From Cyanobium sp. ATX 6F1 (GTDB lineage: Bacteria > Cyanobacteriota > Cyanobacteriia > PCC-6307 > Cyanobiaceae), in assembly GCF_024346315.1 (NCBI RefSeq), contig NZ_JAGQCS010000003.1:186001-250000 (forward strand): a DNA stretch of 64,000 bases, given 5' to 3'. The notes beneath the pieces are model-generated. The model was not told the origin of the DNA and did not search any database. It worked only from the letters and a program-made list of their open reading frames with translations. Positions 39,733 through 43,328 of the stretch are shown here, in pieces. Each line of letters opens with the position of its first letter. Position 1 is the first letter of the stretch. The position numbers were made by a program, and so were the translations under genes.

Positions 39733-40752
39733 GTGGCCGACCCCACTGATCAGGACAGACGACGCATTTCGGTCGATCTTCCAATCGAGATGCTTGCCAA
39801 ACTCGATGCACTCAAAAAGGAGTGGGGTCTGCGCAAGCGCGGTGACCTGTTCGAGCGACTGCTGGAAATGGTGCTTCCAGGCCAGGAAGACCAGGACGTC
39901 CTCGAGGAAGATGCGAGCCGCGATGCGCCCTTCCATGAGCGTGGTGCCCTGGTGCTGGTCAGCCGAGAGGCTCAATCTGAGCTGGCGTTGGATTTTGATC
40001 CAGAGGACATTGCTGACGGGGAGGCCGATGGATGGGCACAGTCAACCGCCAGCAGAGCGCCGCGATCAGGGTCCGGAGGGATCGATCTGCCTGGTTTTGT
40101 GCGCCGTCAGACGAACCAGGTCAGGCGCAGTCTCAACCCTCGGCCGGCGATCAGCAACGGCCAGGAGCCCCTGGCCCTCGTCCAGCCCGGGGAGCTGGAG
40201 CGGGCCCTGCGCACAGCCGAGGATCACTGGATCGACGTGTATGGCAAGCCCGCCAACCCTGCGGTGCTGGAGGCTTCCATGGTCTGGCTGGCCCAGGACA
40301 TCTGGCGTCAATCGGACCAGAGCGAAGGTCGGCCGTTCAGTTGGAGCCTGACCGAGCAGATCATCCAGGGGATTGCTCCCGCCTGGGCCCCCCAGGAGCC
40401 ATCGTTCGCACGGGTGGTGGTGGCGGCCGGTCTGTTGGAGGATCCCTTCAGTGCCAACACGTTGACCCTGCGCATCCCCACATTGATTCGACGCTTCGTC
40501 CACCGCTTCCGACGGCGCCCCAGGGGCACATCGTTCCAGGCCCTGGAAAACACCATGACCCTGCATGGAGCGCTGAAGCTGTTGCAATTGCCGACCACGG
40601 CGGGGCACCGGCTCACCCTGGCCGCCATCCGAGAGGCCTACCGGCTGCAGGCCGCGAGCCACCATCCCGATGCCGGTGGCTCGGTGGAGGCGATGCGGCG
40701 CTTGAACGAGGCCTATCAGTTGCTGAAGGAGTTGTACCGCCAACCGGCCTGA
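39733..40752 (+). CDS. J-domain protein with ribbon-helix-helix-like N-terminus
   Basis: A 339-aa protein. Residues about 9-48 (RRRISVDLPIEMLAKLDALK, then RKRGDLFERLLEMVL) look like a ribbon-helix-helix DNA-binding motif: one strand followed by two helices. A variable acidic linker follows, then a helical central region (about 150-290). The C-terminus is J-domain-like: REAYRLQAASHHPDAGG with the HPD triad at 311-313, then MRRLNEAYQLLKELY, so it could recruit a DnaK. No zinc-finger or G/F region is seen. GTG start. It lies 21 bases after DUF3370, on the same strand. Confidence 0.8.
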   Translation: MADPTDQDRRRISVDLPIEMLAKLDALKKEWGLRKRGDLFERLLEMVLPGQEDQDVLEEDASRDAPFHERGALVLVSREAQSELALDFDPEDIADGEADGWAQSTASRAPRSGSGGIDLPGFVRRQTNQVRRSLNPRPAISNGQEPLALVQPGELERALRTAEDHWIDVYGKPANPAVLEASMVWLAQDIWRQSDQSEGRPFSWSLTEQIIQGIAPAWAPQEPSFARVVVAAGLLEDPFSANTLTLRIPTLIRRFVHRFRRRPRGTSFQALENTMTLHGALKLLQLPTTAGHRLTLAAIREAYRLQAASHHPDAGGSVEAMRRLNEAYQLLKELYRQPA

Positions 40753-40869
40753 TCACACTGGTCTCGCCTGAGACATAAGATCAGCCAGGGGCCTGGTCCC
40801 AAGGGTGCGCCTCAAGCACGATCCATGAACTCAGGAAGGATCCACTGTGTTGCGAATGGGTCTAGTGTC

Positions 40870-40899
40870 TTGACTCATCATGCGTCTCAAATAGATAAA
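40870..40899 (+). promoter_or_regulatory. Candidate promoter inside the gene-poor interval
   Basis: TTGACT at 40870-40875 (five of six to consensus) and GATAAA at 40894-40899 (four of six to TATAAT), separated by 18 bases. It points into the interval that has no recognised gene, so it could drive a small RNA. Only pattern matching supports it. Confidence 0.35.
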
Positions 40900-41131
40900 C
40901 TGAGAAATGAGTGAGTACCGCCTTGGACTCTCTCGGCCGGGCGAATGGCCAGGGAGTGAGACTCGTCTATTTTGACGCGACTAAGAATTGAGTCTAGACC
41001 TGCTAAGCGTCGTAGTTGGGATCATTGGGAATGGTGCGACCATGTTCCCGTCGAGCGTTGGCGGCGAGGTCCCGGCGCATCGATCATGGTCTTTATCAGT
41101 TTGTCTTAGGTCGATGATCAACATCAGCCAT

Positions 41132-41147
41132 CAACTCCGAGGAGTTG
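41132..41147. repeat. Inverted repeat, 7-bp arms, GA loop
   Basis: CAACTCC-GA-GGAGTTG is a perfect 7-bp inverted repeat in the gene-poor interval. The two-base centre makes it a better candidate for a dimeric protein-binding site than for an RNA hairpin. A smaller GTTG-TT-CAAC follows about ten bases later. No T-run follows. Confidence 0.5.
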
Positions 41148-41660
41148 CGGTAGGCGTTGTTCAACACACTGAATGATTCTTTTCGGCAATCTGCATTCAT
41201 TCCACAGATCAATGATAAAAACCGCTCAAGGAAGCAGGCTCTGATGAGCGAAAGCAACTGTTGTGCTCGTGAACAGTCTTCAAGCGGAAATGACTGCGAT
41301 TCCGCATTGCCTGAAGCTGAACAGTTAGCTGTCAAGAATTGTTTTTGACGTGATTCTGGCCGTCGCCATGCTTGCGGCCCTGTGCTGGGAGTGGCGCGGT
41401 TTGCGTGACCCTGTGTGCCGATCCCATCAAGTTCTCCTTGCGATGGGACGACGATGTTGATCTCTCATGGGCCAGGCCTCCATGGACCCCATCGGGCCAG
41501 GGTGCTCAGCTCGACGGGCTTGATCCTTAGAGCGGAAGGCCGTGACCAATTCCTGATCGGGGCCTCCTTGAACGGTGCAGGAGCTGTCCAGTCCATGGGG
41601 TCGCGGTTGTCCAAGGCTTAATGGATGCCCAAGAAGCATTGCCACAGCTGTGTTTTTGAG

Positions 41661-41693
41661 CTTGCGTACCTGTGTCAAACACAGGTACGCAAG
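41661..41693. repeat. Perfect 15-bp inverted repeat with CAA loop
   Basis: Arms 41661-41675 and 41679-41693 are exact reverse complements (CTTGCGTACCTGTGT and its mirror) around a three-base loop CAA. It is the strongest hairpin seen outside genes. A run of five T lies on the 5' side of the + strand, and no T-run follows on either strand, so it is not a standard intrinsic terminator. A structured RNA or element end is possible. Confidence 0.6.
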
Positions 41694-41783
41694 AGTGGGA
41701 TCCTCCAAAGGGGGCAATCGGTCGACGTCGCGCTCAGCTCGAGACTTCCCATGGCTACAGCGCCCATGGGCCACAGGAAAGTA

Positions 41784-41802
41784 TCGCAAGTCGCACTTGC
41801 GA
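41784..41802. repeat. Perfect 8-bp inverted repeat with CGC loop
   Basis: TCGCAAGT-CGC-ACTTGCGA, arms 41784-41791 and 41795-41802. It lies about 90 bases after the 15-bp hairpin and has a similar three-base loop. No T-run follows. Confidence 0.5.
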
Positions 41803-42100
41803 GGCATTCCTAGATTAGTAAATGGACTAGTATGAGAGCACTGAGACAAATCGATTGGTCCATGGTCTCAGGATCGATGGAGAGCCAGGGAACTCCTTGG
41901 TTCGCGTCTGCATGGCAGGCGCCCATCGATGTTCGTTTCCACCGCAGTTGTGAACCATCTGACGACAGATTCCTTCGCGGTGTTGGGTGACCCATCGGCC
42001 GACGTTCAAGGGTGCTGTGCTGCGAAATGCGCTCACATCACCAGGTCAGGCCTGGGTGAAACGCGCACTGGCGACGATGGCGGGACCTTCATAATGCGTG

Positions 42101-42145
42101 ATCCATAAGTCTTGGATTTGACTTAATTCAAGACTTATTATGGAT
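42101..42145. repeat. Imperfect AT-rich inverted repeat
   Basis: Left arm ATCCATAAGTCTTG (42101-42114) and right arm CAAGACTTATTATGGAT (42129-42145) pair over all 14 left-arm bases, with three extra bases bulging from the right arm. A 14-base AT-rich spacer lies between. Flanking bases show partial further symmetry. This could be a small palindromic element or a remnant of paired element ends. Confidence 0.5.
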
Positions 42146-42833
42146 CCCGTATGGGATGCTCTGGATCGACCGGTATCGAGCCCTTGGCCTTTCCCCGGAC
42201 CCCGCCCTTGTCCCTGCCCGGTGGCCCATCGCTCCAGGGGCGAAGACCCTGACCGGATGAACGCCTTCATGTGAGCCACCAATTACGTTGATGTCTGTCT
42301 TTGGGGCAGGGTTCTGCTGGCGCCACCGCGGAGGGCCCTGGGCCAAGTGGTGCCGTCGATCTCATTTGGTACTTGCTTCGCGCCTTGTGGCCTGAATCAA
42401 GTGAGACCAATGCGACAATCCGTTCGTCGGATGGGGAAGGTCATCCCGCCGCTGCCAAGCGACATTGATCCAACCGTCTCATCTGGGTTGAATGCAAGGA
42501 CTTGATCTGGGAATCAAGTGATCCACTTGTGACGGTTGTCGCCGAACAGGCGATCGATCGCGTCATCAGCGTTTTGGCTCTGATTTCAGCCCAGGCGGCA
42601 TGGCCATGGTGGTGGTGCCGCCTGGGCGACTCATGTATTCCCTTAGGGCCGCCAAGATTGATTCTGCCTAATTCTGTTCCTGCAATTCTCGCCTGAGACT
42701 ACTACCTGGTCTTGCAGCGATCCTTGAATGAGACGATTGAAGCGGCCTTGTCAACGTTGCCCGTGCGCATGGTCGCTTCCCATCGCCACAGCCATCGTTC
42801 GACTGGTTTGTGGATGGGTTCGTGACCCTGGGC

Positions 42834-43328
42834 TCAGTTGGGGGTCTGGAGGCTCTTGATCAGGAAGTCAAAGTAGGGGCCTGCCAGCTCGGCTTCGTCC
42901 GTGGAGAGCAGAACGAGGGAAGCCTCCTTGAGGGCGCGCATCGATTCGACCATGCCCGGAAGGGGCACACCCAGGCTGTTGTACATCTCGCGGGCCCCTT
43001 CGACGCCGATCTTCTGGATCAGCTCCGTGCTGCCGGCCAGAACCCCGTAGGTCACCAAGCGGAGGTACCAGCTGAAGTCGCGCAGGCACTGGGCCCGTTG
43101 TTTCTGTCCGTAGGCATTGCCGCCGGGGGCCACATAGTCGGGCTTACGGGTAAAGAGCTGTCGGGCGGCTTCGTCGACGATCTTCTTTTCGTTGTCCGTG
43201 AGCGAGCGCACAACCTGCAAGCGCGTTGATCCGCCCGAGAGAAAGTCAACGATCGAGCGCAGCTCACCGCCACTGGGGTACCGCAACTCGTCGTCTGCTT
43301 GGAGGATCAGATCCCGAACGACGCTCAT
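42834..43328 (-). CDS. apcD: Allophycocyanin B alpha subunit (ApcD)
   Basis: Phycobilisome core subunit acting as a terminal emitter that passes energy to photosystems. The protein is 164 aa. The start MSVVRDLILQADDELRYPSG fits ApcD rather than ApcA or ApcF. The bilin-attachment Cys81 is in AQCLRDFSWYLRLVTYGV, with the conserved Asn and Asp of the chromophore pocket (PGGNAYGQ) before it. It is alone on its strand, beside a 2 kb gene-poor gap, and divergent from rlmD by 154 bases. Other phycobilisome genes are not in the window. Confidence 0.93.
   Translation of the reverse strand: MSVVRDLILQADDELRYPSGGELRSIVDFLSGGSTRLQVVRSLTDNEKKIVDEAARQLFTRKPDYVAPGGNAYGQKQRAQCLRDFSWYLRLVTYGVLAGSTELIQKIGVEGAREMYNSLGVPLPGMVESMRALKEASLVLLSTDEAELAGPYFDFLIKSLQTPN

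Follow-up and report, generated by a model that had tools for sequence, protein, structure and literature searches.

The dif/XerCD system of Escherichia coli pairs a short inverted-repeat site at the replication terminus with a chromosomal tyrosine recombinase (PMC5357621). In the XerS/difSL, XerH/difH and XerA/dif systems, one recombinase acts at a rather symmetric site. The Kono 2011 profiles gave a dif prediction for 578 of 592 single-chromosome bacteria and for none of five cyanobacteria (PMC3025954), and a 2019 genome paper still notes the absence of predicted dif sites from cyanobacteria (PMC6416890). According to the available sections of a 2021 survey, Oscillatoriophycideae lack Xer and have a recombinase subgroup called Cyan instead, which the survey classes among the simple recombinases and for which those sections name no target site (PMC8138268). 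Our search of the open-access literature, with subscription papers outside its scope, found no paper that gives a cyanobacterial dif sequence.

Here we describe a short inverted repeat in a gene-free gap of a picocyanobacterial genome. Most of the marine and freshwater picocyanobacteria that we compared have this repeat, as do many viruses that probably infect them. The gap is probably the replication-terminus region and the core of the repeat probably the picocyanobacterial dif, cut by a conserved recombinase and perhaps accompanied by arm-type boxes. A concrete site together with a candidate recombinase makes the missing cyanobacterial dif testable at the bench, and does so in the ocean's most abundant photosynthetic cells.

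A gene-free gap beside apcD contains one conserved inverted repeat

The window analysed is a 64-kb stretch of the Cyanobium sp. ATX 6F1 genome (2.96 Mb in 17 contigs). Within it, a gene-free intergenic region (40753..42833) separates two convergent genes. One is a J-domain/RHH gene (39733..40752, + strand; DnaJ at E 5e-5, below the Pfam cut-off, and RHH at E 0.014), which stops at 40752 and is hereafter called the J gene; the other is apcD (42834..43328, − strand; PF00502 at E 1.1e-57), which stops at 42834 on the opposite strand. The initial annotation had described a gap that is AT-leaning and devoid of any recognisable gene, and all three points hold. Its GC content is 0.554 against 0.674 in the remainder of the window, a value matched by only 1 of 248 sliding windows of the same size. 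Seven ORFs inside the gap, a subset of all the gap ORFs listed, were searched against Pfam and gave a top match of E 0.096; a hidden or decayed gene was rejected because none of the seven belongs to a Pfam family.

Several smaller features had also been proposed for the gap. No promoter was detected (0.9 expected), so that the candidate promoter was not confirmed, and terminator-like signals numbered one (1.9 expected); the intrinsic terminator and promoter readings were both rejected on these counts, which are at or below chance. The reported 11-mer repeat exists and is in fact a 13-mer, TCTCGCCTGAGAC, found at 40762 and 42687 and including one YRAGAC motif (described below), but with up to two mismatches it occurs four times in the window against 2.75 expected, and this near-chance count led us to drop it as a separate feature. 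Several inverted repeats had been noted and seven pairs were indeed detected, but conservation is confined to the pair at 41661-41693. A BLAST search of the gap against 60 genomes returned, besides the gap itself, only this palindrome, in four other genomes and each time behind apcD. Alignment of the gap with its counterpart in G001, the nearest relative of the source genome among those compared, was good for the core element only (E 1.6e-8; next different segment, E 0.19).

The repeat is retained in relatives and in Prochlorococcus

To compare the locus across relatives, we extracted apcD together with as much as 5 kb of the sequence that lies behind it in 78 genomes, these being the 79 with an apcD match at E<=1e-60 minus the source. 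The J gene lies behind apcD in 62 of the 78, and the palindrome was recovered in 64 when each half-site was allowed two changes; one further locus (L091), where it has three changes, brings the total to 65. Every one of the 62 relatives with the apcD-J interval has the site. The 13 loci without it comprise four with less than 1 kb behind apcD and nine with no J gene in the available stretch, four of these nine being also cut by contig ends. Synteny of this interval, which the initial annotation had put forward as a check on a gap it considered special, was the right test, and with the site retained in 62 of 62 intervals its suggestion that the gap is the scar of a lost element is not supported. 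In one relative (L098, from G106) the apcD-J gap reaches 4.0 kb, with ~3.7 kb of it between apcD and the core.

Across the family, a strict pattern for the site matched 196 of 400 genomes, mostly with one copy in each positive genome, as is expected of dif. Among the genomes listed, the reversed-pattern control gave zero in all but five, and two copies occurred in four (G164, G203, G301 and G319); the contig with the second copy in G164 is phage-like by eye. A stricter pattern applied to genome contigs yielded 103 stretches, 83 of which contain one of four neighbour genes from the window (81 with the J gene or apcD). The titles of the other 20 mostly point to different bacteria, and these matches seem fortuitous, except L248 and perhaps L238.

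Four high-light Prochlorococcus genomes (genus g18) gave no pattern match even with three mismatches. A prediction from synteny, that a core would lie at the corresponding place behind the J gene, was borne out in 10 of 10 pattern-negative high-light Prochlorococcus genomes, all of which have a shortened core there (G-T-[AG]-CTG[CT]-CT[CT]A[AT]AG-ACAGTAC). This core reads GTACTGYCTYAWAGACAGTAC in nine of them and begins GTGCTG in the tenth; the spacer length is unchanged, and all ten have paired TGTCC boxes ~60 bp away. In five further genomes from the same survey, the site departs from the pattern by one or two mismatches. The site thus lies beside the J gene in Prochlorococcus too, making this gene its constant neighbour. 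Outside the family, the pattern with three mismatches matched in four of eight genomes, which is not above the reversed-pattern control, and 340 kb from one such genome contained no skew switch, implying that the terminus lies outside that stretch.

Conserved half-sites surround a variable spacer

The core inverted repeat, GCGTACCTGT-GTCAAAC-ACAGGTACGC (41664..41690, 27 bp), is our candidate dif site. It consists of 10-bp half-sites flanking a 7-bp spacer, GTCAAAC (41674..41680, + strand), and so fits the dif layout of two inverted half-sites of ~11 bp around a centre of 6-8 bp. An outer extension, CTT..AAG, carries the palindrome to 41661..41693. Once near-copies had been removed, 129 host and 49 phage sites were available for anatomy. 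Their half-sites follow a consensus of about TGCGTAMCTGY, in which arm conservation is overstated, part of the set having been collected by pattern. The seven central positions show free variation and no pairing, and the spacer is not conserved between species.

The same set of sites bears on whether the repeat acts as RNA, since regulatory RNAs had been suggested for the gap and a conserved structured RNA or a bidirectional terminator between convergent genes is a rival reading. Some genomes do have a long perfect hairpin, and in 7 of the 129 host sites at least nine outer pairs form, some of these arms being complementary despite differing in sequence. Against this, half-site position 6 varies in one half independently of the other and lacks a pair in 21% of host sites, pairing is mostly missing at positions 10-13, the centre being largely non-complementary, and pairing past the core exceeds expectation for only ~5 positions. 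A covariance search with Rfam, also proposed in the initial annotation, found no match at the gathering score in the window apart from one tRNA, and none at E<=1 in the gap. With terminator-like signals below expectation as well, and with the terminus position of the repeat left unexplained, we consider such an RNA or terminator very improbable.

The long perfect outer arms are seen in Prochlorococcus loci such as L203, L236 and L237, where their sequences differ; up to 16 extra pairs occur among the host sites. These arms look as if they were palindromes undergoing perfection.

TGGACA boxes and a YRAGAC array accompany the core

Two TGGACA boxes, both on the − strand, lie 64 bp (41608..41613) and 87 bp (41585..41590) from the core centre. 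Among host sites with enough flank, 88 of 110 have TGGACA at +55 to +94 from the centre, compared with 1 of 110 in a control interval, and the box distances peak at 64-66, 75-76 and 85-89 bp. Phage sites show the same arrangement in 15 of 40 cases, with two in the control. TGGACA thus provides the repeated boxes beside a core that lambda-type arm binding would call for, and the boxes may be arm sites. The segment between core and boxes (41614..41660, − strand) holds a looser element, recognised by eye only, that resembles GTTGCNACTGGG in relatives and phages.

A second motif, YRAGAC, occurs 16 times in the gap. Six copies lie on one side of the core (40761..41108; starts at 40761, 40769, 40867, 40884, 40957 and 41103) and ten on the other (41740..42734; starts at 41740, 41842, 41865, 42109, 42129, 42402, 42476, 42694, 42709 and 42729). 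This amounts to 7.7 per kb against 1.03 in the remaining window, a ~7-fold enrichment. In the gaps of 61 relatives the density is 8.8 per kb, compared with 1.36 per kb past the J gene, and in 60 of them the gap is more than twice as dense as the sequence past that gene. Preferred spacings, calculated with related genomes at full weight, are 12, 23 and 35 for motifs in the same direction, 15 and 27 for converging motifs, and 8, 20, 32 and 43 for diverging ones. A hairpin at 42105-42138 also includes a YRAGAC motif.

The site lies opposite dnaN near the strand-composition switch

The distance from dnaN to the site is 0.361-0.500 of the circle in all 36 genomes measured, with a median of 0.478 and a value of at least 0.43 in 33. 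For the first 26 genomes the apcD coordinate mostly served as a proxy for the site (dnaN-apcD, 0.361-0.499), and the dnaN-site distance in G032 falls within the same range; nine more genomes, all without an apcD match, gave 0.462-0.500. Because the site and the J gene always travel together, this position may partly reflect shared ancestry.

Strand composition switches close to the site. The sign of GC skew follows the site in 19 of 20 samples in G025 and 17 of 20 in G032, and that of AT skew in 18 and 20 of 20, respectively. We computed three skew measures together and placed weight on the combined one, cumulative keto-skew (G+T minus C+A). In 200-kb stretches, its maximum lies 2.75 kb from the site in G025 and 4.0 kb in G032. 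GC skew alone peaks 3.0 and 76 kb away and TA skew alone 16 and 18 kb away, respectively. In the 64-kb window, the keto-skew maximum is 4.1 kb from the site, with GC alone at 27 kb and TA alone at 19 kb. The site therefore sits where dif is expected, at the terminus and strand-composition switch, a position that GC skew by itself misses in one of the two genomes.

In G174, which we take to be Prochlorococcus MED4, the chromosome midpoint is 828,995. A published reanalysis of MED4 vesicle DNA, in which ter is set at 826,000-832,000, reports that a 100-kb region around ter is enriched and that the top peak lies at the presumed dif; the dif positions were taken from earlier papers, and the available text gives no sequence for them (PMC10913375). 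Our site in G174, at 829,204, is inside this 826-832 kb vesicle-peak interval. Given the chromosome midpoint above, the published MED4 dif position may be a midpoint. If our reading is correct, it would supply a sequence for the Prochlorococcus vesicle-DNA peak and a terminus landmark for picocyanobacterial genomes.

A terminus site need not be a recombination site. A protein bound here could instead organise or stop replication or aid segregation, in the manner of a fork-trap, macrodomain or parS-like site, and the terminus position, the inverted repeat and the phased YRAGAC array would suit such an architectural complex as well. Recombination, however, better suits conserved half-sites around an unconserved 7-bp spacer, as it does the arm-like boxes and the universal recombinase described below, and copies in phages are a known property of dif. 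We therefore regard a terminus site that works without recombination as unlikely.

A conserved tyrosine recombinase is the candidate enzyme

PF00589 matched in 28 of 28 family genomes searched and exactly once in G087, G011, G032 and G063, where the sole match is a conserved protein of ~390-410 residues. In the source genome its gene lies outside the window (G000:C2, ~78713-79945). A model built from this protein recovered it from all 10 family genomes searched with it (E<=1e-188). Across the class, the same model found relatives at E<=1e-10 in 82 of 116 genomes. Two of three proteins score above the PF00589 cut-off, and the source-genome protein reaches 26.4 against a cut-off of 27.1. In an alignment of 19 sequences, R259, K286, R351, H374 and Y383 are invariant; these are presumably the catalytic residues, with Y348 in place of the usual first H of HxxR. 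The predicted structure (pLDDT 77, pTM 0.46) has XerA as its nearest fold, followed by Brujita Int and XerH, and the comparison with XerA (4a8e) gave Z 11.1 and rmsd 11.9 over 241 aligned residues. By both catalytic residues and fold, the protein is a tyrosine recombinase. The curated Xer families do not include it, as it falls far below the NCBIfam cut-offs for XerC, XerD, XerS and XerA (at most 36 bits, with the XerA model, whose cut-off is 220; others lower).

Arm-binding domains consist of a helix, three strands and a helix. The N-terminal 90 residues of the recombinase are modelled in this same order with pLDDT 87. Their resemblance to the P4-like integrase domain 3rmp is weak (Z 4.1, rmsd 3.4, 60 aligned) and tied with unrelated entries, and Foldseek returned nothing for the domain at E<=0.001, so that an arm-binding role for this extra domain is suggestive only.

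These properties outline how the system might work. One conserved tyrosine recombinase would occupy both half-sites on either sister copy, cleave where the 7-bp spacer meets the arms and swap strands between the copies, so that a chromosome dimer becomes two monomers. Its extra N-terminal domain may hold on to the TGGACA boxes, which would then serve as arm-type sites and impose a direction on the reaction.

The proposed system resembles dif/XerCD in combining a short inverted repeat at the terminus with a chromosomal tyrosine recombinase as the candidate enzyme. It differs in its 27-bp site with nearly symmetric arms and a 7-bp spacer, in its single recombinase in place of two, in the TGGACA boxes and YRAGAC array beside the core, and in an enzyme far below the XerC/D cut-offs. 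The site is therefore dif-like by position and anatomy, while its enzyme stands outside the curated Xer families and recombination is a prediction. One recombinase and a rather symmetric site are shared with XerS/difSL, XerH/difH and XerA/dif, and the structural comparison agrees, with XerA as the closest fold and XerH as one of the closest. Unlike those single-recombinase systems, however, the picocyanobacterial enzyme has an extra N-terminal domain and the site has distant boxes; unlike in difSL and difH, its gene is away from the site (PMC5357621). Like the Cyan subgroup, it is a cyanobacterial recombinase found where Xer is lacking (PMC8138268), and it probably belongs to that subgroup or to its sister group. 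Finally, a core inverted repeat with short repeated distant boxes and a possible arm-binding domain recall lambda-type integrases, from which this system departs in being encoded by a housekeeping gene in all genomes checked and in having a fixed target at the terminus.

Related sites occur in probable viruses of picocyanobacteria

The stricter pattern identified 83 stretches on viral contigs, and none of the 80 listed contains any of the four host neighbour genes. Of the 64 whose flanks are long enough, 44 have a box within 110 bp of the site, compared with 4 that have one at 290-400 bp. Forty-seven of the 80 listed stretches encode one of two protein clusters within 6 kb of the site, 46 of these within 2 kb, and the tested member of each cluster is a terminase large subunit, one of them T7-type. 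On one viral contig (L317:2958-4808), the terminase large subunit has an intein-like insertion (Intein_splicing at E 6.8e-7, below the Pfam cut-off).

Among named phages, a BLAST search with the bare core gave one match, AP013539 (Autographiviridae, Pedosvirus; E 0.02), which was confirmed by reading: it has a full match to the site in a 944-bp gap beside the terminase. Its 49 genes include none annotated as an integrase, and no exact TGGACA lies near the site. A search of named phages with one phage site and 251 bp of flank found no meaningful place.

Phage copies raise the question of whether what the host carries is an attB of cyanophages, either domesticated or permanent, with the phage copies as attP, much as the initial annotation had considered an integration hot spot. 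Viral contigs do carry the same core and boxes, indirect support for such a hot spot, and four spacers are common to the 68 host and 43 phage spacers, where shuffling predicts 0.41. Extra copies of the site in Prochlorococcus G195 and G079 also lie near T7-like RNA polymerase genes, in G195 with an integrase too. In the relatives read, however, no prophage or other inserted phage DNA was seen at the terminus copy, and AP013539, a named phage that carries the site, has no annotated integrase gene. Moreover, integrase-bearing T7-like cyanophages are reported to use tRNA-Leu (PMC8776855), and near-universal retention calls for a host function. An attachment site therefore seems quite improbable to us, less likely than a non-recombining terminus site.

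Under our preferred reading of the core as a dif site, phages that carry it may borrow the host enzyme. They would then resemble the dif/Xer-exploiting phages such as CTXphi, whose genomes have a relative of the host terminus site (PMC5357621). They differ from these in being tailed phages with the site close to terminase and with no terminus integration seen. If correct, this would point to cyanophages exploiting the chromosome-unlinking system of their hosts. A more specific proposal, which we hold only tentatively and think somewhat doubtful as a whole, is that cyanobacterial dimers are resolved by one integrase-like recombinase at an att-like terminus complex of core, arm boxes and YRAGAC array, and that largely lytic cyanophages keep a copy of this complex close to their terminase genes, through which the host enzyme would be recruited to handle the phage genomes.

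Two Prochlorococcus regions contain recognisable phage genes. In G195 (L458, 1016001-1036000, and L459), a T7-like cyanophage remnant has pieces of an RNA polymerase gene and an integrase gene, together with three site-like copies over 20 kb, the outer two of which have similar flanks, like direct repeats. In G079 (L460, 750001-770000), an uninterrupted gene for an 813-aa T7-like phage RNA polymerase lies 3.6 kb from the extra copy of the site.
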